A DNA stretch of 64,000 nt from Arenimonas maotaiensis. Lineage in GTDB: Bacteria > Pseudomonadota > Gammaproteobacteria > Xanthomonadales > Xanthomonadaceae. Shown here one piece after another: positions 9,490 to 35,893 of this stretch. A model generated the notes under the pieces. That model saw only the letters and a list, made by a program, of their open reading frames with translations. It had not been told where the DNA came from and ran no database searches. Each line of letters begins with the position of its first letter. Position 1 is the first letter of the stretch. The stretch lies in assembly GCF_014638745.1 (NCBI RefSeq), contig NZ_BMFO01000002.1:372001-436000 (forward strand), read 5' to 3'. Both the position numbers and the translations under genes were made by a program.

Positions 9490-10263
9490 TCAGGCGGCGA
9501 ACAGCAGCCAGGCCTGACGCGCGATCAGCGCCAGCACGATGACCAGGAACACGGCGCGCACGAAGGCCTGGCCTTTGCGGATGGCCAGGTGGCTGCCGAG
9601 GTAGCTGCCGAGCATGTTGCCGACGATCAGCGGCAGGGCCAGGGTCCAGATCACGAAGCCGCTGAACATCAACACCGTCCAGGAGCTCAGATCGGCGGCG
9701 ACGTTGGCGGCCTTGGCCGAGGCCGAGGACTTCAGGAAGTCCAGACCGAGAAAGCTGACGAAGGCGAATACCATCAGCGTGCCGGTGCCCGGGCCGATCA
9801 GGCCGTTGTAGAAGCCGGTCGCGGCGCCGATCGCCAATGCGGCCACGCTCTCGTGCCGAGGATGGAAGCGGCGCTCCTCCTTCAGCCCCAGATCCTTGCG
9901 CAGGGCGGTGTACAGCGCCAGCAGCACGCAGATCGCCAGCACGGTCCACTTCAGCAACTCGGGGTCGATGCGTTTGGCGAACTGCACGCCGACGGCCGAG
10001 GCCGTGAGCGCCGCGGCGCAGGCCGGCAACAGGATGCCGCGTTCGACGCGGACCTTGCGCAGGTAGTTCCAGGCCGCCACCGAGGTGCCCATGATCGAGC
10101 TGGTGCGCTGCGTGCCGATGGCCTGCAGGATGCCGAGACCGGGATGCAGGTTGAGCATGGCCGGGGTCAGCACCAGGCCGCCGCCGCCGACGATGCTGTC
10201 GATCAGGCCGGCGGCGAAGCCGGCGAGGGCGGTCAGCAGCCAGAGGATGGTATCGATTTCCAT
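9490..10263 (-). CDS. TauE/SafE (TSUP) family membrane transporter
   Basis: A 257-residue integral membrane protein of the TSUP family, whose members are implicated in sulfite, sulfoacetate or other organosulfur export. About eight transmembrane segments are visible. The family signatures are in the two half-repeats: the N-terminal GLIDSIVGGGGLVLTPAML and the central GAATGFYNGLIGPGTGTLM. It lies convergent to cysK with a seven-base gap, so a role in sulfur compound traffic is plausible but inferred. It is downstream of typA on the same strand but separated by a terminator. The substrate is unknown. Confidence 0.85.
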   Translation of the reverse strand: MEIDTILWLLTALAGFAAGLIDSIVGGGGLVLTPAMLNLHPGLGILQAIGTQRTSSIMGTSVAAWNYLRKVRVERGILLPACAAALTASAVGVQFAKRIDPELLKWTVLAICVLLALYTALRKDLGLKEERRFHPRHESVAALAIGAATGFYNGLIGPGTGTLMVFAFVSFLGLDFLKSSASAKAANVAADLSSWTVLMFSGFVIWTLALPLIVGNMLGSYLGSHLAIRKGQAFVRAVFLVIVLALIARQAWLLFAA

Positions 10264-10280
10264 GGTCGGTATCCGGGCAA

Positions 10281-10308
10281 GAAAAACCCCGCGGACGCGG
10301 GGTTTCTC
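10281..10308 (-). terminator. Rho-independent terminator of typA
   Basis: AAACCCCGC and GCGGGGTTT pair around a GGAC loop. Read on the minus strand, the stem is followed by a run of five T, directly after the typA stop. It separates typA from the downstream TauE-type gene. Confidence 0.88.
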
Positions 10309-10311
10309 GTG

Positions 10312-12138
10312 TTAAGCGCGGCCGGCGCGCTTGCGCTCGTTCTCGGTCAGGTGCTTCTTGCGCAGGCGGATTTCCTTCGGGGTGACTTCCACCAGCTCGT
10401 CGTCCTCGATGAAGTCCAGCGCCTGCTCCAGCGTGTATTTGATCGCCGGGGTCAACTTGATGGCGTCGTCCTTGCCGGAAGCGCGCATGTTGGTCAGCGG
10501 CTTGGTCTTGATCGCGTTCACGGTCAGGTCGTTGTCCTTGGAATGGATGCCGATCAGCTGGCCTTCGTAGACATTGTCGCCTTCGGCGGCGAACAGCTTG
10601 CCGCGCTCTTCCAGCGGGCCCAGCGCGTAGGCCGGGGTGGCGCCCGGGGCGTTGGCGATCATCACGCCGTTCGGGCGTTTGGCGATGGCGCCTTCGGACT
10701 TCGGGCCGTAATGGTCGAACACGTGGAACAGCAGGCCGGAGCCCTGGGTCAGGGTCTTGAACTCGTTCTGGAAGCCGATCAGGCCACGCGCCGGAATTTC
10801 GTAATCCAGGCGCACGCGGCCCCGGCCGTCGGATTCCATGCTCTTCAGCTGGCCCTTGCGGATGCCGAGTTTCTCCATCACGCCGCCCTGGTGCTGCTCT
10901 TCGATGTCGACCACCAGCTGCTCGATCGGCTCCATCAGCTGGCCGTCGATTTCCTTGATGATCACTTCCGGGCGCGACACCGCCAGCTCGTAGCCTTCAC
11001 GGCGCATGGTTTCGATCAGCACCGACAGATGCAGTTCGCCGCGGCCGGAGACCAGGAACTTGTCGGCGTCGGAGCCTTCCTCGACGCGCAGGGCGACGTT
11101 GTGCACCTTCTCGCGGTCCAGGCGCTCTTTCAGCTGGCGGCTGGTCAGGAACTTGCCGCCGGACAAATCTTTATTGCCGGCGAACGGCGAGTTGTTGACC
11201 TGGAAGGTCATCGAGATGGTCGGTTCGTCGACGGTCAGCGCCGGCAGCGCTTCCGGGAAATCCAGGGCGCACAGGGTGTCGGAAATGGTCAGTTCCTGGA
11301 TGCCCGAAATCGCCACGATGTCGCCGGCCTGCGCCTCTTCGACCTCCAGCCGTTCCAGACCGAGGAAGCCGAGCACCTGCAGCACTTTGCCCTGGCGTTT
11401 CTTGCCTTCGCGGTCGATGATGGTGACCGGCATGTTCTTCTTGACCTTGCCGCGCTGGATGCGGCCGATGCCGATCAGACCGACGTAGCTGTTGTAGTCC
11501 AGCTGGCTGATGCGCATCTGGAACGGGCCTTCGAGGTCGACCTGCGGCGGGCTGACGTGCTTCATGATCGCTTCGTACAGCGGGGTCATGTCGCCGTCGC
11601 GGGTTTCCGGATCCAGGCTGGCGTAGCCGTTCAGCGCCGAGGCGTACACGATCGGGAAGTCCATCTGCTCGGCGGTGGCGCCCAAGCGGTCGAACAGGTC
11701 CCAGACCTGCTCCACCACCCAGTCCGGACGCGCGCCCGGGCGGTCGATCTTGTTGACCACCACGATCGGCTTGAAGCCCATGTCGAACGCCTTCTGGGTC
11801 ACGAAGCGGGTCTGCGGCATCGGTCCGTCCATGGCGTCGACCAGGATCAGCACCGAGTCGACCATCGACAGTACGCGCTCGACTTCGCCGCCGAAGTCGG
11901 CGTGGCCCGGGGTGTCGACGATGTTGATGCGGTTGCCGTTCCAGTTGATGGCGGTGTTCTTGGCCAGGATGGTGATGCCGCGCTCCTTTTCCTGGTCGTT
12001 GCTGTCCATCACGCGCTCGGCGATCTGGGCGCGTTCGCCGAAGGTGCCGGATTGCTTCAGCAGTTGGTCGACCAGGGTGGTCTTGCCGTGGTCGACGTGG
12101 GCCACGATCGCGATGTTGCGGAGGTTTTCGATGGACAT
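10312..12138 (-). CDS. typA: Ribosome-associated GTPase TypA/BipA
   Basis: TypA/BipA, 608 residues, a translational GTPase related to EF-G that assists ribosome assembly and stress or low-temperature growth. The G1 motif is in [13 protein letters not shown] near residue 15; other G motifs include [20 protein letters not shown] and [15 protein letters not shown]. The C-terminal half contains [20 protein letters not shown] and the TypA-specific domain. An in-frame ATG at 12189 would add 17 residues, but a TATAAT box overlaps it. ATG 12138 gives the usual [12 protein letters not shown] start, so I prefer it although no good ribosome-binding site is seen. Confidence 0.95.
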
Positions 12139-12187
12139 AGGGAGGCTGCCTGAACCGGCATGATTATCGTAGGGAGATGAGCCGGAC

Positions 12188-12217
12188 ATTATACTCCGTC
12201 AGGGCCTGTTAAGTCGA
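12188..12217 (-). promoter_or_regulatory. Candidate promoter of typA
   Basis: On the minus strand, TCGACT (plus 12212-12217, four of six) is followed after 18 bases by a perfect TATAAT (plus 12188-12193). The predicted start would be near 12180, about 40 bases before the chosen typA ATG. Confidence 0.55.
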
Positions 12218-12264
12218 TTTATGGCATCCTATTCAACCCGTATTCACCCACCCCGGAGCCATCC

Positions 12265-12771
<507 letters not shown>

Positions 12772-28094: not shown

Positions 28095-28120
28095 AAAAAC
28101 CCGGCTCAGCCGGGTTTTTT
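28095..28120. terminator. Bidirectional terminator between the lipoprotein gene and the lipid operon
   Basis: CCCGGC and GCCGGG pair around TCA, with five A before and six T after. It serves the plus-strand lipoprotein gene and the minus-strand lipid operon; the stop of the last lipid gene lies inside it. Confidence 0.9.
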
Positions 28121-29146
28121 GTTGCGGAAGCGGTAGTGCGCCACCATCCACTCGTTGCCGCCGTCATAGGCGAACAGCTCGGCGCACGACATCCAGAACA
28201 TGCGCCAGCGCTGGGCCCAGATGTCGGCCTGGTCCTCACCGTAGGCTTTAGCCAAAATCGCGCGAACCTGGTCGCGGTGGGCGTCCTGGTTGGCCAGCCA
28301 ATGATTGGCGGTGCGGGCGTAGTGGCGTCCGGGCACCAACCAGCGCGATTCGACCGCAAGGCTGTCGGCGAAGTGCAGCAGGGTGTCGGCCGAGGGCATC
28401 AGGCCGCCGGTGAAGAAATAGCGGCCCATCCAGTTGTCTTCGCCCTCGACCTCGAACGGATACATCAGATAGCGGTGCACGAAGATATGCACGAACAACG
28501 CGCCGTCGGGGCGCAGCCAGCGCGAGACGGAATCCAGCAGGGTCCGGTAGTTGCGCATGTGTTCGAACATCTCGATCGAGACGCAGCGGTCGAAGCTGTC
28601 GGCGGGGAAGTCAAGCACGTTGACGTCACGGGTGAGCACGGTGACGTTGCCCAAGCCGCGCTCCCGGCACTGCGCTTCGATGTGCGCGCGCTGGGTGGCC
28701 GAATTGGAGACCGCGGTGATGCGCGCGTTCGGGTAGTTCTCCGCCATCCACAGCGTCAGCGAGCCCCAGCCGCAGCCGAGCTCCAGGATGTCCTGTCCAT
28801 CGCGCAGTTCGGCGCGTTCGCCATACAGGCGCAGCATATGCTCTTCGGCTTCGTCCAGGCTCTCGTCGCCGTTGGGGTAGTAGGCCGAGGAATACTTCAA
28901 GCGCTTGCCGAGGCACAGCGTGAAGAATTCGGTGGGAACCTCGTAGTGCTGTTCGTTGGCGGCGGCGGTCTCGATCGCCACCGGACTCCGCTTCAGCTCT
29001 TCGATCAGGGCGTTGAAACGGCGGTCGGCCAACCCGGCGTCGCGGGCGCCTTCATCGGCCAGGCGCTGCGCGCACAGGCGGCGGATGCCGTAACGGATCA
29101 GGGCGTCGGGCAGCAGCCGGCGTTCGGCGAAATCGATCAGACTCAT
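28106..29146 (-). CDS. CFA-family SAM-dependent methyltransferase (second copy)
   Basis: A 346-residue methyltransferase of the cyclopropane-fatty-acid synthase superfamily, shorter than E. coli CFA synthase (382). The SAM-binding motif is DILELGCGWGSLTLWMAE and the acidic catalytic block is SIEMFEHMRNY. The segment LFVHIFVHRYLMYPF keeps a histidine where the bicarbonate-binding histidine of CFA synthase sits, but KYSSAYY has serine where E. coli has cysteine. It is the last gene of the eight-gene operon and ends in the terminator. It probably transfers a methyl group to lipid or another substrate; the product is not known. Confidence 0.82.
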   Translation of the reverse strand: MSLIDFAERRLLPDALIRYGIRRLCAQRLADEGARDAGLADRRFNALIEELKRSPVAIETAAANEQHYEVPTEFFTLCLGKRLKYSSAYYPNGDESLDEAEEHMLRLYGERAELRDGQDILELGCGWGSLTLWMAENYPNARITAVSNSATQRAHIEAQCRERGLGNVTVLTRDVNVLDFPADSFDRCVSIEMFEHMRNYRTLLDSVSRWLRPDGALFVHIFVHRYLMYPFEVEGEDNWMGRYFFTGGLMPSADTLLHFADSLAVESRWLVPGRHYARTANHWLANQDAHRDQVRAILAKAYGEDQADIWAQRWRMFWMSCAELFAYDGGNEWMVAHYRFRNKKPG

Positions 29147-29158
29147 AAGGCTCCGGGT

Positions 29159-29938
29159 TTATCGGGCTTTCGGGGGGAAAGGGAAGAACGCGCTGACTTC
29201 GCGCTGGTAGCGCCGGTAATCCTTGCCGCGCGAGCGCAGGGACTGCGCTTCGGTCCACGGGATGCCGCTGATGCGGTACAGGAAGGCCAGCATCAGCACC
29301 GGGCCGATCAGGCTGAGCGGCATGCGCGCGCCGCCGACGGCGATCAGCACATAGGCGAACCAATGCAGCCATTCGAAGAAGTAATTCGGATGCCGCGACC
29401 AGGCCCACAACCCGCTCCGGCAGGTTTTGCCGCGGTTGTTTGGGTTGCCGCGGAAGCCGGCCAGCTGCGCGTCGGCCAGGGCTTCGCCGGACACGCTCAA
29501 CACGAACACGGCCAGCGCCGCGAACCACAGCGCGTCGAAACCGCGGGCGGGGTTGGACGCGGCGGCGATGAACGGCAGGCTGAACAGGGCGACGATCACG
29601 GCCTGGCCTTGGAAGAACACTAACAGCTTGGCCGGACTGCCGTTCCAGGCCGCGCGCAGCGCCTGGTAGCGGCCGTCCTCGGGCTCGTGGCGTACGCGCA
29701 CGAACAGGGCCAGGGACAGGCGCAGACCCCAGATGCCGGCGAATCCGGCCACGGCCAGACGCGCCGCCGGACTGCCGTCGGATACCCAAGCGCAGTAGAT
29801 GCCGGCCAAGGCCATCAGTCCGGCCCAGGCGACGTCGACGATGCCGATGTTGCGCAGCTTCAGGGCCAGCAGCCAGACCAGCGTCATGGCCACGGCACTG
29901 CCGGCGAACACCGGCAGCAGGATATCGGCAATGCTCAT
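29159..29938 (-). CDS. DUF1295 membrane protein (steroid 5-alpha-reductase-like)
   Basis: A 259-residue polytopic membrane protein with about six to seven hydrophobic segments. The C-terminal block CRSGLWAWSRHPNYFFEWLH and the tail RSRGKDYRRYQREVSAFFPF are typical of DUF1295/steroid reductase-like proteins, which usually reduce double bonds in lipids. It overlaps the DUF2878 gene by four bases and precedes the second CFA-type gene by 12 bases. The role in the pathway is inferred: a reductase acting on a modified fatty acyl chain or an isoprenoid is possible. Confidence 0.8.
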   Translation of the reverse strand: MSIADILLPVFAGSAVAMTLVWLLALKLRNIGIVDVAWAGLMALAGIYCAWVSDGSPAARLAVAGFAGIWGLRLSLALFVRVRHEPEDGRYQALRAAWNGSPAKLLVFFQGQAVIVALFSLPFIAAASNPARGFDALWFAALAVFVLSVSGEALADAQLAGFRGNPNNRGKTCRSGLWAWSRHPNYFFEWLHWFAYVLIAVGGARMPLSLIGPVLMLAFLYRISGIPWTEAQSLRSRGKDYRRYQREVSAFFPFPPKAR

Positions 29939-30489
29939 GGCGTCGCTTCCTCATGGTTCGAAATGCCGCGGTCCAGCCAGCGGATCGTGCTGAAGCCGAT
30001 ACCCCAGACCGCGCCGATCAGCAGCAACGACGGAATCAGCCGATGCTCGACCGTCATCGCCCCGAAACGCGCGGCGGCGATGCCGTAGGCCAATGGCCCG
30101 CCCAGCAGGCCGAACAGGAAAGTGTATAGGCGGCTGCGGTAGACCGCGCGCAGCGAATGATTCAAGGTCAGCGCGAACGCCAGCCACAGCGCCATGATCC
30201 ACAATGGCGCCCAATCGGCCCATGGAAAGGCGCCGGCATAGCGCAGCCATTCCGATTTCACCAGCACGCTGTCCATCACGAAGCCGATCGGCAGGGCGAT
30301 CGCCACGGTCCGCAAATCGCGTTGCCGGTTGCGGCCGAACGCCAGCACCAACAGCGCGAACACGGCCGCAGCCAAGGCGCCGGGCCGCCAATCGCCGTTA
30401 CCGGCGCCGATCACGCACGACAGCCAGACGGACTGGAAGCCGATCAGATTGAGCAGCGTGCGCGGCAGGTCGGCGGACGCGGATTGCAT
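29935..30489 (-). CDS. DUF2878 family membrane protein
   Basis: A 184-residue integral membrane protein with about five hydrophobic segments and no known catalytic motif. Segments include NLIGFQSVWLSCVIGAGNGD, VAIALPIGFVMDSVLVKSEW and LWIMALWLAFALTLNHSLRA. DUF2878 proteins recur beside CFA-type and DUF1365 genes; that is recalled family context. ATG 30489 shares a base with the preceding stop. A longer open frame to 30585 overlaps the CFA gene and is not supported. Function unknown; a lipid-handling role is inferred from the operon. Confidence 0.75.
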   Translation of the reverse strand: MQSASADLPRTLLNLIGFQSVWLSCVIGAGNGDWRPGALAAAVFALLVLAFGRNRQRDLRTVAIALPIGFVMDSVLVKSEWLRYAGAFPWADWAPLWIMALWLAFALTLNHSLRAVYRSRLYTFLFGLLGGPLAYGIAAARFGAMTVEHRLIPSLLLIGAVWGIGFSTIRWLDRGISNHEEATP

Positions 30490-31727
30490 CAGTCGGCCTG
30501 TCCGGGTTTGGCGAACAGCATATGCACGTCGCTGATCGAGCGTTCGCGGAAGCCGGCCTCGCAGTAGGCCAGGTAGAAATCCCACATGCGCACGAAGCGG
30601 GTGTCGTAGCCGAGCGCACGCACCGCCGTTTCGGCATCAAGGAAGCGCCGGCGCCATTCATTCAGGGTGCGCGCATAGCTGTCGCCGATGTCCTGCAGGC
30701 CGGTCAGCCGCAGTTGCCCGGCCTCGGCGGCGGAGGCCACCATCGAGCTGACGCAGGGGATGTAGCTGCCGGGGAAGATGTAGCGCTTGATGAAGTCGAC
30801 GCTGTGCAGGGCCTGTCGGTAACGATGATCCTCGATGGTGATGGCCTGGATCAGCGCCTTGCCGCCGGGCTTCAGCAGGGACGCGCACTTGGCGAAGTAG
30901 GTGTCTTGGTACTGGTGGCCGATGGCTTCGATCATCTCGATCGACACCAGTTTGTCGAAGCGGCCCTCCAGTTCGCGGTAATCCTTGAACAGCAGGGTCA
31001 CGCGCTCCTGCAGGCCGGCCGCGCGGATGCGTTCCGCGGCCAGGTCGTGCTGCTGCCTGGAAATGGTGGTGGTGGTGACCCGGCAACCGTAGCGCGACGC
31101 CGCATACACCGCCATCGCGCCCCAGCCGGTACCGATCTCGACCAGATGGTCGTCCGGGCCCAGCTCGAGTTTTTCGCAGATCAGCTGCAGCTTGCGTTCG
31201 GAGGCTTCCTCCAGCGTCATGTCCTCGCGCTCGAACACCGCCGAGGAATACATCAGGCTGGGGTCGAGGAACAGCTCGAACAGGTCGTTGCCGAGGTCGT
31301 AGTGCGCCGCGATGTTGCGCCTGCTGCCGGAGCGTGTGTTGCGCCGCAGTGCGTGCGCGCCGCGCATCAGCCAGCCGGCGAAGCGGGCGCCGCCGCCTTC
31401 CATCGCGTCCAACAGGTCGCGGTTGCGGATCAGCAGGCGCATGATGTCGACCAGGCGCGCGGAACGCCAGTCGCTGTCCATGTAGGATTCGGCGGCGCCG
31501 ACCGAGCCGCCGAAGGCGACTTTGGCGAAGAACGCCGGATCGCGGATCTCCAGGGTGCCGAAGTCGGGGGCGGACGCATCGCCGAGTAGCAGCGGACCGC
31601 CGCCTGGTTCGGCCAGGCGGAAGTGGCCATGGCGTAGGCCGGCCAGTTTGCCGAGCACCTGCCGGCGGATCAGGGCGTCGAACGCGGAAGGCTTGCCGGC
31701 GGCGGTCTGGAGCTCGGTATCGATCAT
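30489..31727 (-). CDS. Cyclopropane-fatty-acyl-phospholipid synthase family methyltransferase
   Basis: A 412-residue CFA-superfamily methyltransferase. After an N-terminal domain of about 130 residues comes HYDLGNDLFELFLDPSLMYS, then the SAM motif VEIGTGWGAMAVYA and the acidic residue E267 in SIEMIEAIGHQY. Where E. coli CFA synthase has a bicarbonate-binding histidine (LLHTIG) this protein has Q294 (LIQAIT), and S162 replaces the cysteine. The product may therefore be a methylated rather than a cyclopropane fatty acid. The gene lies between DUF1365 (seven-base gap) and DUF2878 (one-base overlap). Confidence 0.87.
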   Translation of the reverse strand: MIDTELQTAAGKPSAFDALIRRQVLGKLAGLRHGHFRLAEPGGGPLLLGDASAPDFGTLEIRDPAFFAKVAFGGSVGAAESYMDSDWRSARLVDIMRLLIRNRDLLDAMEGGGARFAGWLMRGAHALRRNTRSGSRRNIAAHYDLGNDLFELFLDPSLMYSSAVFEREDMTLEEASERKLQLICEKLELGPDDHLVEIGTGWGAMAVYAASRYGCRVTTTTISRQQHDLAAERIRAAGLQERVTLLFKDYRELEGRFDKLVSIEMIEAIGHQYQDTYFAKCASLLKPGGKALIQAITIEDHRYRQALHSVDFIKRYIFPGSYIPCVSSMVASAAEAGQLRLTGLQDIGDSYARTLNEWRRRFLDAETAVRALGYDTRFVRMWDFYLAYCEAGFRERSISDVHMLFAKPGQAD

Positions 31728-31734
31728 GTCGGTC

Positions 31735-32490
31735 TCAGGGGTGGTCGTGGAACGGAACGCGTTTGAACCAGAGCAGCAGGGCGTTCCAGTAGATGCCGAC
31801 GGCGACTTTCGCGGTGATCCACGGGAACGCCAACAGTTGCCGCAGCAGCGATGATGGACTCAATTCTCGCCGCCGCAGGGTCAAGGTCGCGTCAAATTGC
31901 CGCTCGCCGGCCCGTTGTACCCGCATGTACACGCCCAAGGCCTCGCTGGGTGTGCCGAAGCGCCAATCGTACTTCAGCGCCATCGGCAGGAACGGCGAGA
32001 CATGGAAGCGCTTGGGGAAGCGCCATGTCGCCGGCTGCCGCGCATCATGGCCGGGTTCGATCGGCAGGAAATAGCTGAAACGCTCGCCCCACGGTGTGTT
32101 GGTGATTTCGGCCAGAATCCAACGCAGGGTCCGGCCGTCTTCGTCGAACCCGTAGTAGAAGCTGACCGGATTCATCACGAACCCCAGCACGCGCAGGTGC
32201 GTCAGCATGAAAATCGGTCCGCGCTGGGCCTGCCCCGTTTCGGCTTCGGCGTGCCGGCGCACGGCCTCGTCCAGCGAAAGCGACGGGTCGCCGAAATAAT
32301 CGGCGCGCCGGTACTGCAGCCAATTGAAGCGGCCGATCGAGCAGAACGGCAGCCGCGACAGGGTGGCTTCGATCCGGCGGGTATCGAGATAGAGCTGGAA
32401 CAGCCCGTAACGGAAGGCGTGCGGCTTCGGGACGAAGCGCCGGTGCGCGATACGTCCGACGTACAGGGCATCGGACTGCAGGGCCGTCAT
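31735..32490 (-). CDS. DUF1365 family protein
   Basis: A 251-residue DUF1365 protein. Family blocks seen are YVGRIAHRRFVPKPHAFRYG, FCSIGRFNWLQYRRADYFGD, LTHLRVLGFVMNPVSFYYGF and WGERFSYFLPIEPG. DUF1365 proteins are regularly encoded beside FAD oxidoreductases and CFA-type methyltransferases; in Rhodobacter sphaeroides a similar set belongs to the singlet-oxygen response. The biochemical function is not established as far as I know. Four-base overlap with the FAD oxidoreductase gene upstream. Confidence 0.85.
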   Translation of the reverse strand: MTALQSDALYVGRIAHRRFVPKPHAFRYGLFQLYLDTRRIEATLSRLPFCSIGRFNWLQYRRADYFGDPSLSLDEAVRRHAEAETGQAQRGPIFMLTHLRVLGFVMNPVSFYYGFDEDGRTLRWILAEITNTPWGERFSYFLPIEPGHDARQPATWRFPKRFHVSPFLPMALKYDWRFGTPSEALGVYMRVQRAGERQFDATLTLRRRELSPSSLLRQLLAFPWITAKVAVGIYWNALLLWFKRVPFHDHP

Positions 32491-33728
32491 TCCCGCTCCA
32501 GCAGTGCCTGGGCGACCTCATGGCCGCTGCGGAAGCCGTCTTCATGGAAGCCGAAACCCCAGTAGGCGCCGCAGAACCAGCTGCGGTTGAGGCCTTGGAT
32601 TTCGCCGCGGCGGGTCTGCGCGCGCACCATCGCGTGGTCGTATTGCGGATGCTGATAATCCATCACCGCGAAGATTTTGTCCGGTGCGATCTGCCCGCGC
32701 TGGTTCAGGCTGACGATGAACGGCTCGGGACTGTCGACGCCCTGCAGGATGTTCATGCAGTAGCTGACCGTGCACGGCGCCGACGGATCGGCGGGGATGT
32801 CGGCGTTCCAGGCCGCCCAGGCGCGGCGGTCCGGCGGCAGCACCGAGGCGTCGCGGTGCAGCACGGTTTCGTTCGAGGCGTAACGGATGGCGCCGAGGAT
32901 CTCGCGCTCTGCCGTGCTCGGCGCCCCCAGCATGGCCAGGGTCTGGTCGCTGTGGCAGGCGAACACCGCCTGGTCGAAGCGTTCGTTGCCGTCGGCGGTC
33001 TCGAGCTCGACATGCGACTCGAAGCGGTTGACCCGGCGTACGCCGGCGCCGAGGCGGACGTCGACCGGCCATTGCGCCGCGAGCTTTTCGACGTAGCTGC
33101 TGGAACCGTTCTCCAGCACGCGCCAGACCGGCCGGCCGCTGAGTTGCAGCATGTGGTGGTTGGCCATGAACGCCACCAGGTACTTGGCCGGAAAGTCCAG
33201 GATGCGCGCGCTCGGCGACGACCACAGCGCGCTGGCCATCGGAATCAGGTGGTTTTCGGTGAAGTAGCGGCCGTAGCCGCCCGCGCGCAGATACTCGCCC
33301 AGGGTCGGGCCGTCCTCGGCGGAGGCCAGCAGCGCCGGGCATTCGCGGTAGAAACGCCGGATTTCGGCCAGCATGCGCCAGAACGCCGGCGAGGCCAGAT
33401 TGCGCTTCTGGCAGAACAGGCCGCCGAGGTCGTGCGCGTTGTAGTACATCCCGAGCGCGCGGTTGTGCACCGCGAAGCTCATCTCGGTTTCGCGCGTACC
33501 GACACCCAGTTGGCGCAGGAACGCGCTGAACAGCGGATAGTTGCCGGGATTGTGCACGATGAAGCCGGAATCGATGCGGTACCGGCGTCCAGCCATCTCG
33601 AGCGTGTGCGTGTGGGTGTGGCCGCCGAGCCGGTGCTCTTTCTCGAACAACACCACTTCATGCCGTTGCGCCAGCGCCCGGGCGCTGGCGATGCCGGCGA
33701 TACCGCTGCCGATGACCGCGATTCTCAC
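32487..33728 (-). CDS. FAD-dependent oxidoreductase of the amine-oxidase type
   Basis: A 413-residue flavoprotein. The dinucleotide motif GSGIAGIASARALAQ is at residues 7-21, followed by LFEKEHRLGGHTHTHTLEM. This group of NAD(P)/FAD-binding proteins is a standard partner of DUF1365 and CFA-type methyltransferases. A role in oxidation or desaturation of a lipid-bound intermediate is inferred. Starts in a four-base overlap with the desaturase gene and ends in a four-base overlap with the DUF1365 gene, so the three are coupled. Confidence 0.85.
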   Translation of the reverse strand: MRIAVIGSGIAGIASARALAQRHEVVLFEKEHRLGGHTHTHTLEMAGRRYRIDSGFIVHNPGNYPLFSAFLRQLGVGTRETEMSFAVHNRALGMYYNAHDLGGLFCQKRNLASPAFWRMLAEIRRFYRECPALLASAEDGPTLGEYLRAGGYGRYFTENHLIPMASALWSSPSARILDFPAKYLVAFMANHHMLQLSGRPVWRVLENGSSSYVEKLAAQWPVDVRLGAGVRRVNRFESHVELETADGNERFDQAVFACHSDQTLAMLGAPSTAEREILGAIRYASNETVLHRDASVLPPDRRAWAAWNADIPADPSAPCTVSYCMNILQGVDSPEPFIVSLNQRGQIAPDKIFAVMDYQHPQYDHAMVRAQTRRGEIQGLNRSWFCGAYWGFGFHEDGFRSGHEVAQALLERE

Positions 33729-34660
33729 ATCGCCTCCGCTTTAACGCGTGCCGGCACCGGCTTCAGGTCCCAAGCCAAGCCCAGCGCCTGCATCGTGCGC
33801 AGCGCAAGGTAGGTCAGGTCCAGTTCCCACCAGAAGAAGCCCTGGCGGACGCTGTTGGGATAATGATGGTGGTTGTTGTGCCAGCCTTCGCCGAAGGTGA
33901 ACAGCGCCAACAACGCATTGTTGCGGCTGTCGTCGCGGGTGGCGTAGCGGCGCGAGCCCCAGACGTGCGCCACCGAGTTGATGCTGACGGTGACATGGAA
34001 CAGCAGCACCGTGGACAGCACGAAGCCCCAGACCAGCAGCTGGGCGCCATCGGTATCCAGCCCCGGCGCGTGACGGGCCAGCAATTCGCCGATAAGGTAC
34101 AGCAATGCGGCCAACACGGCCGGCGCGACGATATCAAAGCGGTTCAGCCAGCGCAGGAACGGGCGTTTGGCGAAATCTTGGATCACCGAATAATCGGTGG
34201 CGAAGGCTTCATGCCGCAGGAACCAGCTCATGTGGCTGCGCCAGAAGCCGTGGATCGGGCTGTGCAGGTCCTGCGGGGTATCGGAATGCCGGTGGTGATG
34301 GCGGTGGTGGGCGGCCCACCACAGCGGGCCGCGTTGCGCGCTGGCGGCGCCGATGAAGCCGAACAACGATTCGACCCAGCGGTGGGTCTTGAAGGTCTTG
34401 TGCGAAAAATAACGATGGTAGAAGCCGGTGATGGCGAACATGCGCAGGCCGTAAGTGACTGCCAAGGCGGCCAGCGCAGCGTGCGAATAGCCGACCCAGA
34501 ACACCGCCAGGCAGGCCAGATGCAGGCCGATGAACGGCAGGATGCGCAGCCAGGCGACGCCGTCGCCTTTCGGCTCGGGCACGGCTTCGCTGTCGAACCA
34601 GGCGATGAGGGTACGGAGGCGGGAGCGCGAAGCAGACATACCGTTAATTCTGGACGGCAT
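33725..34660 (-). CDS. Membrane fatty-acid (acyl-CoA type) desaturase
   Basis: A 311-residue integral membrane di-iron desaturase. The three histidine boxes are present: HRYFSH, HHRHHH (in WWAAHHRHHHRHSDTP) and HNNHHH (in GEGWHNNHHHYPNSV). Three to four hydrophobic segments surround them. It introduces a double bond into fatty acyl chains at the membrane, supplying substrate for the CFA-type enzymes of the operon (inferred). The start is either ATG 34660 or ATG 34639; neither has a strong ribosome-binding site, and I give the longer form. It follows the OsmC gene by 21 bases. Confidence 0.9.
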   Translation of the reverse strand: MPSRINGMSASRSRLRTLIAWFDSEAVPEPKGDGVAWLRILPFIGLHLACLAVFWVGYSHAALAALAVTYGLRMFAITGFYHRYFSHKTFKTHRWVESLFGFIGAASAQRGPLWWAAHHRHHHRHSDTPQDLHSPIHGFWRSHMSWFLRHEAFATDYSVIQDFAKRPFLRWLNRFDIVAPAVLAALLYLIGELLARHAPGLDTDGAQLLVWGFVLSTVLLFHVTVSINSVAHVWGSRRYATRDDSRNNALLALFTFGEGWHNNHHHYPNSVRQGFFWWELDLTYLALRTMQALGLAWDLKPVPARVKAEAM

Positions 34661-34681
34661 GCGGTGATTCCATCGTGAAGG

Positions 34682-35128
34682 TCAGTTCTCGACCCGGAAG
34701 TCGGTATTGAGCGTGTTGGCGATGAAACAGTTGCGGTGCGCGCTGTCGTGCAGCTTGGCCAAGGTCTCGGCGTCCGGCGCGTTGTCGCCACCGAACTCGA
34801 TCCGTGGATGCAATACGCAGTGCGTGATCGCCATGCGGCCGTCGGCGTTCTTGCCGAGGGTGCCGGTGATGTGGTCGCGGTAGCTCAGCACGGTGTAGCC
34901 GCGTTTGGCGGCCACCGCCAGGAAGGTCAGCATGTGGCAGGAGGACAACGCCGCCAGCAACAGGGTTTCGGGGTTGGATGCCGCCGGATTGCCCAGGAAC
35001 GCCGGCGCGGCCGAGTTCAACAGGGCATGTCCGTTCTCCAGGGTGACGGTATGGTCGCGCGAATAGGTGTCCGCCTGCTGCGGATGCGACTGCGCGTTCC
35101 ATTCGATGTCGGCGACGTGTTCGGACAT
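34682..35128 (-). CDS. OsmC-family protein
   Basis: A 148-residue OsmC/Ohr-family protein. OsmC-like peroxidases reduce organic hydroperoxides through a pair of cysteines. Here the first redox cysteine fits SSCHMLTFLAVAAKRGYTV and the second fits HRNCFIANTLNTDFRVEN. The ribosome-binding site GAGGAG is about seven bases before ATG 35128. It is the first gene of the lipid-modification operon, which fits defence of unsaturated lipids against peroxidation. The divergent pseudouridine synthase gene begins only 36 bases away. Confidence 0.85.
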   Translation of the reverse strand: MSEHVADIEWNAQSHPQQADTYSRDHTVTLENGHALLNSAAPAFLGNPAASNPETLLLAALSSCHMLTFLAVAAKRGYTVLSYRDHITGTLGKNADGRMAITHCVLHPRIEFGGDNAPDAETLAKLHDSAHRNCFIANTLNTDFRVEN

Positions 35129-35151: not shown

Positions 35152-35157
35152 ATTCTA
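35152..35157 (-). promoter_or_regulatory. Candidate -10 box for the osmC-lipid operon
   Basis: TAGAAT on the minus strand (five of six) lies 24 bases before the OsmC ATG. No acceptable -35 is seen, and no obvious ECF-sigma (RpoE/ChrR type) promoter either. The whole divergent spacer is 36 bases. Confidence 0.3.
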
Positions 35158-35164
35158 CACCGGC

Positions 35165-35893
35165 ATGACCGACACCGCCCCCAAACGCCATGGCCTCGCC
35201 CGCGTGCTGTCCAAGCTGGGCCTGGCCTCGCGCACGCAGGCGGCGGCATGGATCGCCGAAGGCCGGGTGCGGGTCAACGGCCGCGTGCGCCGCGACCCCG
35301 AGTTTCCGGTGCGCATGGGCGTCGATGCCGTCGCCGTCGCCGGCGAGGCCGCACAGCGGCAACAGCGCCGCGTGCTGATGCTCAACAAGCCGCGTGGTCT
35401 GGTCACCACCCGCAATGACGAAAAGCAACGCGCCACCGTGTACGACTGCCTGCCGGCCGACATGCCGTGGTTGGCGCCGGTAGGGCGTTTGGACAAGGCC
35501 AGCGAGGGCCTGCTGCTGTTCAGCAACGATCCGCAGTGGGCGGCGCGCGTCACCGATCCCGCGACCGGCCCCGACAAGACCTACCATGTGCAGGTCGATT
35601 GCCGGCCCGATGCCGCGTTGTTGAAAGCTTTGGAGACCGGTGTCGACTCGTCCGAGGGCCTATTGCGCGCCAAGCGGGCCCAGCTGTTGCGCGTCGGCGA
35701 AAAGAACGCCTGGTTGGAAATCGTGCTGGACGAGGGCCGCAACCGCCAGATCCGGCGACTGCTCGAAGCCTTCGATATTGAGGTATTGCGTCTGGTGCGC
35801 ACCGCCATCGGCGGCCTGCCCTTGGGCGACCTGCCGAAAGGGCAGTGGCGGGAGCTCGGCGCGGACGAAATCGCTTTATTGGATCACGCCTAG
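35165..35893 (+). CDS. RsuA/RluB-family pseudouridine synthase
   Basis: A 242-residue pseudouridine synthase. The N-terminal S4 RNA-binding domain is [20 protein letters not shown] followed by [18 protein letters not shown]. The catalytic aspartate is in [17 protein letters not shown], and the family block [16 protein letters not shown] follows. It modifies a uridine in 16S or 23S rRNA, but the exact site cannot be told from sequence. ATG 35165 is 36 bases from the OsmC start on the other strand. Its 3' end overlaps the convergent kbl gene by 18 bases. Confidence 0.88.

Follow-up and report, generated by a model that had tools for sequence, protein, structure and literature searches.

A probable operon for methylated furan fatty acids in Arenimonas maotaiensis, found under two main versions of control across its family

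We describe a set of co-oriented genes in a stretch of 64,000 nucleotides from Arenimonas maotaiensis (contig NZ_BMFO01000002.1), which is the whole piece of DNA under analysis and is called the window below. Seven of these genes, at 28106-34639 on the minus strand, probably make up one operon for the synthesis of methylated furan fatty acids (FuFAs) on membrane phospholipids, under the control of a repeat-containing promoter and with no neighbouring pair of extracytoplasmic function (ECF) sigma factor and anti-sigma factor. We hold this reading of the sequence with reasonable confidence. Together with an adjoining gene for an OsmC-like protein, the genes studied span 28106-35128 in this one genome. 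FuFAs are found in plants, fish and microbes, where they are held to be antioxidants, and the bacterial pathway has reportedly been worked out in two phototrophs. The locus looks like the whole pathway to dimethyl-FuFA, with a desaturase and two uncharacterised proteins added, in a single operon. No description of this type of locus was found among the papers listed by our searches of the open-access literature, subscription journals being mostly outside its scope.

The eight protein families named in the original prediction do share one strand. The open reading frame (ORF) list and the sequence give eight ORFs between 28106 and 35128, all on the minus strand, with Pfam matches above the curated cut-offs to, in order, OsmC, FA_desaturase, an amine-oxidase-like flavin adenine dinucleotide (FAD) protein, DUF1365, CMAS, DUF2878, DUF1295 and CMAS again. 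The ORF ends also return the tight junctions described there, overlaps of one to four bases and gaps of 7, 12 and 21: the gap of 21 nt between the OsmC and desaturase ORFs is followed by two overlaps of 4, a gap of 7, overlaps of 1 and 4, and a gap of 12.

A neighbourhood comparison across the family bears out this arrangement. A UfaO (DUF1365) match was obtained in 62 of 119 family genomes, the window's genome included, and 60 of the 61 other loci were compared; G022, in which the match falls into two pieces, was left out. The order desaturase-FAD-DUF1365-CFA-DUF2878-DUF1295-CFA, where CFA denotes a protein of the cyclopropane fatty acid synthase type, and its placing on a single strand are conserved in 60/60 related loci for the genes detected, and the arrangement is therefore not a product of chance. 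All seven genes are present in 46 of the 60. DUF2878 was undetected in nine loci and DUF1295 in three, while the desaturase and the second CFA-type gene (CFA2) were each undetected in one (L048 and L050, respectively), where the available stretch stops at a contig edge. The G+C content of 28106-34639 is 65.9%, against 65.8% for the whole window, and thus gives no hint of a recent foreign origin.

The identities of the central enzymes rest on comparison with a characterised pathway. In Rhodobacter sphaeroides and Rhodopseudomonas palustris, UfaM methylates cis-vaccenate on phospholipids, the FAD-binding UfaD forms a methylated diene, UfaO, a DUF1365 protein, inserts an oxygen derived from O2 to give the furan, and FufM adds a second methyl group (PMC7380195; this and the other papers are cited for the portions of them that were available). 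Our reference proteins come from Cereibacter johrii, a relative of R. sphaeroides, and the locus was reached through an R. sphaeroides rpoE primer printed in PMC10673084. It reads rpoE, chrR, UfaD, UfaO, a transporter-like ORF, a 186-aa ORF and an ORF resembling a short-chain dehydrogenase/reductase (SDR), with names given by eye and ORF lengths close to those of R. sphaeroides RSP1087-1090. C. johrii UfaM was taken as the sole strong CMAS/CFA-type match of that genome; a photolyase-like ORF, again named by eye, stands before it.

On the best reading of these comparisons, the FAD gene is UfaD-like, the DUF1365 gene UfaO-like and the first CFA-type gene (CFA1) UfaM-like. The UfaD candidate (32487..33728, minus strand), a putative FAD-dependent methyl-fatty-acyl desaturase, carries a GxGxxG motif and is 41% identical to C. 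johrii UfaD over 417 aligned positions. The UfaO candidate (31735..32490, minus strand; Pfam 9.2e-76), which would form the furan in an O2-dependent step, shows 33% identity to its C. johrii counterpart over 240 positions. The UfaM candidate (30489..31727, minus strand), predicted to be an S-adenosylmethionine-dependent fatty-acyl C-methylase, is 42% identical to C. johrii UfaM, compared with 35% for the canonical Klebsiella CFA synthase, and it falls on the UfaM side of a tree in which canonical CFA is represented by one row only, on a long branch.

Is CFA1 simply a cyclopropane synthase? The operon would then make cyclopropane or methyl-branched acids for membrane rigidity, and CFA1 does score highly with CFA models (CMAS 7.5e-83; CPFASynBruc 1.4e-81, which is below the cut-off of that model). 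C139 and H266 matter for cyclopropane formation by CFA synthase. At the positions C139/H240/H266 the Klebsiella enzyme has C/H/H, whereas the window protein and C. johrii UfaM both have S/A/Q, so that the C139/H266 pair of cyclopropane synthases is replaced by S and Q in CFA1. These residues are kept in 59/61, 61/61 and 61/61 sequences, respectively, from the 60 loci and the window. When Halomonas UfaM was expressed in E. coli, cyclic acids were formed alongside the methylated intermediate (PMC12089945), a point in favour of this rival. With CFA1 nearer to UfaM than to CFA synthase, carrying UfaM residues and placed directly after UfaD and UfaO in 60/60 loci, we regard a plain cyclopropane synthase as highly improbable and a UfaM-like enzyme as the better reading.

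The structure of the UfaO candidate offers a lead of its own. A sequence search of solved structures brought up no relative, its one match being at E 0.4, and the AlphaFold2 model of the protein (pLDDT 93.9) is a beta-barrel with helices at the end. A fold search with this model returned nothing at E <= 0.001 and weak likeness to fatty-acid-binding-like and nitrobindin barrels. The conserved residues H15, R17, E127, H137 and H162, taken with the weak nitrobindin-type likeness of the modelled barrel, may point towards a cofactor.

The original prediction also spoke of two CFA-type methyltransferases. Two are present, but PDB matches, identities, the tree and residues all indicate different enzymes, one of the UfaM type and one of the coclaurine/FufM type. 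The latter, CFA2 (28106..29146, minus strand), is probably FufM, a C-methylase of coclaurine-N-methyltransferase type that would add the second ring methyl and give dimethyl-FuFA. Its best PDB relatives are plant coclaurine N-methyltransferases (3.9e-73), well ahead of bacterial CFA (2.6e-28), and the 34 CFA2-type rows form one side of a branch with support 100. The plant protein LIME1 is one that we take to be close to the coclaurine methyltransferase group. CFA2 is 26% identical to C. johrii UfaM, and the published FufM is likewise 26% identical to UfaM (PMC7380195) and most similar to LIME1, a plant methyltransferase (PMC10940516). Among 398 genomes of the phylum, CFA2 (E 1e-45) was found in 33, and 30 of these 33 also have UfaO (E 1e-10), compared with 121 of the 365 without CFA2 (Fisher 6e-11, with kinship not corrected for).

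CFA2 has a regular companion in the DUF1295 membrane protein (29159..29938, minus strand; Pfam 2.4e-67), the putative partner of the FufM-type gene. Outside the family, CFA2 was matched in 28 genomes, and we inspected its neighbourhood in 20 of them. DUF1295 accompanies CFA2 in 17 of these 20, adjacent in 16 and one gene apart in L152; two of the 20 are from the same taxonomic order as the family and hold the whole operon, and without them the pairing stands at 15/18. On a Caballeronia plasmid, for example, the order is sigma factor, anti-sigma factor, DUF1295, CFA2, lipocalin, UfaD, UfaO, UfaM. The two genes are thus linked across several proteobacterial lineages, and the link is directly testable. 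In the alga Chlamydomonas, CFA1, a coclaurine-type CFA2 (named coclaurine N-methyltransferase in another table of the same paper), DUF1365, DUF1295 and DUF2177 are all among the genes whose induction by singlet oxygen depends on SAK1 (PMC4067076). That they are induced together there is independent support for one shared function. As a side observation, the Legionella lytica plasmid L093 carries a DUF2177 gene (10241-10651) beside its ufa locus, the same family as in the Chlamydomonas singlet-oxygen table (PMC4067076).

What DUF1295 might do is suggested by its predicted structure. The best folds matched by its AlphaFold2 model (pLDDT 96.1) are those of delta-14-sterol reductase (4quv) and SRD5A, with some likeness to ICMT, all at E > 0.001; match probabilities are 0.99-1.00 for the reductases and the eukaryotic ICMT entries and 0.77 for archaeal ICMT. 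The predicted fold is therefore best described as like that of the sterol reductases and 5-alpha-reductases.

An alternative is that the operon makes monomethyl-FuFA only, with CFA2 and DUF1295 acting on a head group or on some other lipid. The nearest solved relatives of CFA2 are amine N-methyltransferases, and six of the 17 DUF1295-CFA2 loci (L147-L149, L151, L159, L160) have the pair with no ufa gene in the stretch. The presence of UfaO in nearly all CFA2 genomes, the company that CFA2 keeps with ufa genes in several lineages and the published likeness of FufM to LIME1 all argue the other way. We consider a monomethyl product unlikely, and favour FufM.

The first gene of the operon encodes a membrane di-iron fatty-acyl desaturase of the stearoyl-CoA desaturase (SCD) type (33725..34639, minus strand; Pfam FA_desaturase 1.1e-24, acyl-CoA desaturase in PDB 3.2e-27). 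It is homologous to SCD1 and has the three histidine boxes HRYFSH, HHRHHH and HNNHHH, of which the first and third patterns are kept in 61/61 relatives and the second, as written, in 24/61. The 61 matches to this query, among 87 loci, comprise 59 of the 60 family loci and the two loci of the same order outside the family. The original prediction gave this di-iron desaturase a central role. In the characterised pathway, UfaD forms the diene and DUF1365/UfaO brings in the furan oxygen (PMC7380195). The desaturase therefore probably does not carry out the furan-forming step, and that proposal is set aside. The DUF2878 protein (29935..30489, minus strand; Pfam 2.3e-36) was detected in 51/60 related loci. 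Elsewhere in the same genome there is a second FA_desaturase gene (G000:C1:775065-775862) and a third, weak CMAS match (G000:C4:33536-33925), both outside the window.

From gene content, order, homology and active-site residues we infer every reaction, and the product, of the following pathway. The desaturase would add a double bond to acyl chains, UfaM would methylate the unsaturated chain, and UfaD, with FAD and O2, would convert it to a methylated conjugated diene. UfaO would then put in one oxygen from O2 and so close the furan ring, to which CFA2, as FufM, would attach the second methyl. DUF1295, a reductase-like membrane protein, may help in the FufM branch and DUF2878 may be an accessory, and the product would scavenge reactive oxygen in the membrane.

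The same operon is found under two main versions of control across the family. The 60 related loci fall into 35 that are ECF-linked, 20 of the window's type and five in neither group (L041, L048, L053, L064, L066). ORF clustering of the flanks was misled by the spurious ORFs of GC-rich DNA and was replaced by searches with the real neighbour genes. In the 35 ECF-linked loci, an ECF sigma/anti-sigma pair is found on either strand up to about 2.4 kb upstream of the operon, except in L071 and L072, where it is downstream. None of these loci has any of the window's flanking genes that we searched for. By best hit, 16 of the anti-sigma factors are of ChrR type and 19 of RskA type; Pfam confirmed RskA_C in the three proteins tested for it, two from the family and one from Caballeronia, and Cupin_7 in both of the ChrR-type proteins tested. 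Cupin_7 matches occur in 15 of the 16 ChrR-type loci, L040 being the exception. The notion that every operon-side anti-sigma factor is a ChrR was ruled out by the RskA_C matches and the 19 best hits.

The 20 window-type loci have no sigma/anti-sigma pair, and all 20 share a neighbour resembling a pseudouridine synthase, which is found in 0/35 of the ECF-linked loci. The window's other upstream neighbour, KBL, is present in 10 of these 20, and its OmpA-like neighbour in 16. In three loci, L042, L054 and L058, a weak ECF match stands alone some 2.1-2.4 kb upstream. L048, which has the OmpA-like neighbour and stops at a contig edge, probably belongs to the window type; having no desaturase match, it was left out of the motif counts, in which the window is added to its type (n = 21) and the others number four.

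The two versions are mirrored in the DNA ahead of the desaturase. TGCATCC-N16-CGTA, matched at no fewer than 10 of 11 positions, is found there in 15/16 ChrR-type and 19/19 RskA-type loci, 0/21 window-type loci and 1/4 of the others. TTCAC-N6-ATCACCG, in turn, is found in 15/21 window-type loci at >=11/12 and in 17/21 at >=10/12, in 0/35 ECF-linked loci and in one of the four others (L041). Fisher tests of these contrasts give 6e-11 and 2e-14. A tree of the concatenated operon proteins (FastTree, long branches) needs one change of control label among 57 labelled loci; the loci share ancestry, and the Fisher counts are therefore not independent events. The root of this tree is unsure, and the four plasmid-record rows fall inside the window-type group. 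In the same scans neither motif was seen upstream of CFA2. The published ECF motif was also tried as a pattern; it had no match upstream of the desaturase in 59 loci or the window, and a scan with mismatches came out slightly above shuffles. The proposed link to methylated FuFAs and the singlet-oxygen response is supported.

In the window, the tandem repeat TTCAC-N6-ATCACCG, with its 11-bp period, lies at 34662..34679 on the minus strand and is proposed as the operator/promoter. It matches at 12/12 positions, is the sole match in the window at <=1 mismatch and is in the same place in 14 of the 20 other window-type loci. The desaturase has its first in-frame ATG at 34660 and its second at 34639; in 16/16 loci with a repeat at >=11/12 (window and L041 included) an ATG or GTG follows 21 or 22 nt after the repeat. 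This fixed distance makes 34639 the most likely start, and the gap to the OsmC gene then becomes 42 nt. By eye, there is a -10-like hexamer, CAGAAT, at 34647..34652 (minus strand), 7 nt before that ATG, and a promoter scan listed nothing at this place. Read in this way, the hexamer would give a near-leaderless transcript.

Activator sites of the OmpR/PhoB family have this layout, a pair of 7-bp half-sites that recur every 11 bp and stand immediately before a -10-like hexamer, and a protein of this family probably binds the repeat. The site is also a rare one. In 22 genomes TTCAC-N7-TCACCG has 36 matches, 16 of them at the ufa operon, while the reversed pattern has 12, and we therefore regard it as a near single-target site. 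The nearest printed motif known to us is the cre/blr tag TTCAC-N6-TTCAC, bound by CreB (PMC4689548). The CreBC regulon was considered as a candidate, and CreD was not found in the genome. The regulator thus stands as a prediction. Going further, a CreB-like, near single-target switch of the OmpR family may have replaced the sigma/anti-sigma pair in one Lysobacteraceae branch, with DUF1295 as a new membrane reductase acting on FuFA or on a FufM-derived product; we offer this combined idea tentatively and think it more doubtful than not. If true, the same antioxidant lipid would be produced for a different signal.

A competing possibility is that window-type operons are run by a distant ECF factor, or by sigma-70 alone, with the repeat as part of the core promoter and not as an activator site. 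A close match to TGCATCC-N17-CGTA, one base longer in its spacer, occurs in five of the 21 window-type loci (L016, L017, L038, L054, L058), and the activator is only predicted. The window itself lacks such a site: the best ECF-type match upstream of its desaturase is 8/11 (shuffle p 0.43), which agrees with the earlier remark that no RpoE-type promoter was to be seen. The absence of ChrR from the window extends to the whole genome, in which neither Cupin_7 (E 0.001; the same search is positive in 77/119 family genomes) nor RskA_C was found, lone sigma/ECF factors not having been searched for. An 11-bp tandem would also be ill-suited to serve as a -35/-10 pair. We thus regard control by a distant ECF factor or by sigma-70 as possible though rather doubtful, and prefer an activator at the repeat.

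Several observations count against parts of the reading that we prefer. CFA2 is set beside FufM through published identity and description only, although its subfamily and co-occurrence fit. At 1e-10, UfaO was not matched in three of the 33 genomes with CFA2; L154, L158 and L164 hold CFA2 without DUF1295 within the examined stretch; and dimethyl-FuFA was formed in vitro with FufM when DUF1295 had not been added (Lemke 2020, PMC7380195). The identity of the UfaO candidate is low at only 33%, and no report of furan fatty acids for the family was seen among the papers listed by our searches of the open-access literature. As for control, five window-type loci have the N17 site just described, and two of them, L016 and L017, carry both this ECF-like site and the TTCAC repeat. 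The repeat is missing in L038, L054 and L058, its copy in L042 is doubtful and misplaced, and in L020 it lies about 1.5 kb from the desaturase. L041 is at neither type of site and its proteins group with those of the ECF-linked loci, yet it has the repeat 22 nt before an ATG. Both motifs were picked out by inspection of the very loci in which they were then counted, and their fit is therefore partly by construction; fixed spacing, mononucleotide shuffles and the scans ahead of CFA2 served as controls. Lastly, CreD was not found in the window's genome, where CreB itself was not searched for.

The OsmC gene (34682..35128, minus strand) had been thought to lead the operon. It encodes an OsmC/Ohr-type protein (Pfam OsmC 6e-17; best PDB relative VCA0330, 2d7v, 1.6e-33) with cysteines at 64, 104 and 134, of which Cys64 and Cys134 are, by eye, at OsmC-like positions. 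The comparison does not support the idea of a leading gene. OsmC adjoins the operon in just 6/60 other loci, namely 6/20 of window type and 0/35 of the ECF-linked ones (p = 0.001). In each of these six, a distance of about 24 to 71 nt separates the end of the OsmC match from the conserved repeat, so that OsmC is in front of the operon's promoter-like element and not at the head of the operon. OsmC is probably a patchy, optional upstream neighbour with its own transcription unit. A -10-like hexamer of its own, TAGAAT, can be made out by eye (unscored) at 35152..35157 on the minus strand, 23 nt before the OsmC start, where the promoter scan listed nothing. In L020 about 1.5 kb (11116-12602) separate OsmC plus repeat from the desaturase match.

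It may still be asked whether a promoter before 35128 drives all eight genes, OsmC included, as a single transcript, with the repeat incidental. Only 21 nt lie between OsmC and the first ATG, the scan listed no terminator there, and read-through is possible. Against such a transcript, the repeat is conserved at its distance from the desaturase whether or not OsmC is present, OsmC is rare at the other loci, and in L020 it is far from the desaturase. We judge an eight-gene unit to be quite unlikely, and take OsmC to be optional to a seven-gene operon that would be transcribed, in this lineage, from the tandem-repeat promoter.

At the end of the operon, an intrinsic-terminator-like hairpin (28095-28119, minus strand), preceded by an A-run and followed by a T-run, overlaps the final stop codon; a 46-nt stretch here folds at -21.6 kcal/mol. 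A simple pattern-based terminator scan did not list this hairpin, which looks like the terminator of the operon. On the other side, the pseudouridine synthase-like gene (35165..35893, plus strand; named by eye) points away from the operon and serves as the marker of the constant site at which operons of the window type lie.

One further arrangement was seen outside the family. On a plasmid of Aeromonas sp. BC14 (L094, 2219-4524), a MerR-family regulator and a photolyase precede the ufa genes, and control there is possibly light-responsive. The control of the window's operon differs from that of more than half of the relatives compared. Three or more kinds of control are seen over the same operon, a clear case for asking how regulation is rewired around a constant pathway.

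How does the window compare with known systems? Homologues of UfaM, UfaD and UfaO, described from R. sphaeroides, are present here, and so, probably, is that of FufM, which R. palustris adds (PMC7380195). The R. palustris gene numbers run UfaD-UfaO-UfaM, as in the window (PMC7380195). In R. sphaeroides, ufaM has a separate location, and the ufaD operon otherwise contains genes with annotations as a symporter, a hypothetical protein and an SDR (PMC7074977). Unlike Rhodobacter and Rhodopseudomonas, the window has everything in one operon, plus a desaturase, DUF2878 and DUF1295, and no adjoining rpoE-chrR.

A FAD-DUF1365-cfa-DUF2878 core is common to the window and to an SDR-FAD-DUF1365-cfa-DUF2878 cluster of Aeromonas salmonicida (PMC10012899). 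The same core is found in Klebsiella-labelled, Aeromonas, Pseudoalteromonas and Legionella plasmid records, of which Legionella adds DUF1295. These gammaproteobacterial clusters variously include photolyase, NTF2-like, SDR, DUF3833 and chalcone-isomerase-like genes, and that of Pseudoalteromonas has ChrR together with a sigma factor. Neither a desaturase nor a second CFA-type gene is given in the incomplete feature tables of these four plasmid stretches. The Klebsiella "plasmid" (CP125156.1, L092) is, at 5.4 Mb, of chromosome size, and its UfaM-like gene is split over two frames and is not in the feature table.

The closest regulatory parallel is the ECF-ChrR pair PSPTO_1043/1042 of P. syringae, which binds (T)GATCC-N16-CGTA before a locus with UfaD, UfaO and UfaM homologues (PMC5507510). 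The TGCATCC-N16-CGTA of the ECF-linked relatives resembles this TGATCC-N16-CGTA promoter, and homologues of the pair have already been noted in Stenotrophomonas and Rhodanobacter (PMC5507510). The window, in contrast, has neither the anti-sigma factor nor such a promoter, and operon pairs of the RskA type are not mentioned in the available portion of that paper. With the CreB box of CreBC/BlrAB, TTCAC-N6-TTCAC (PMC4689548), the window shares TTCAC-N6-xTCAC and the 11-bp period, while its second half-site is ATCACCG. Finally, the plant and algal AtUFAMD1, AtUFAO1 and LIME1 (PMC10940516) and the SAK1-dependent set of Chlamydomonas (PMC4067076) belong to the same enzyme families as the window's proteins; there they are separate eukaryotic genes, with functions that are inferred in those papers too.

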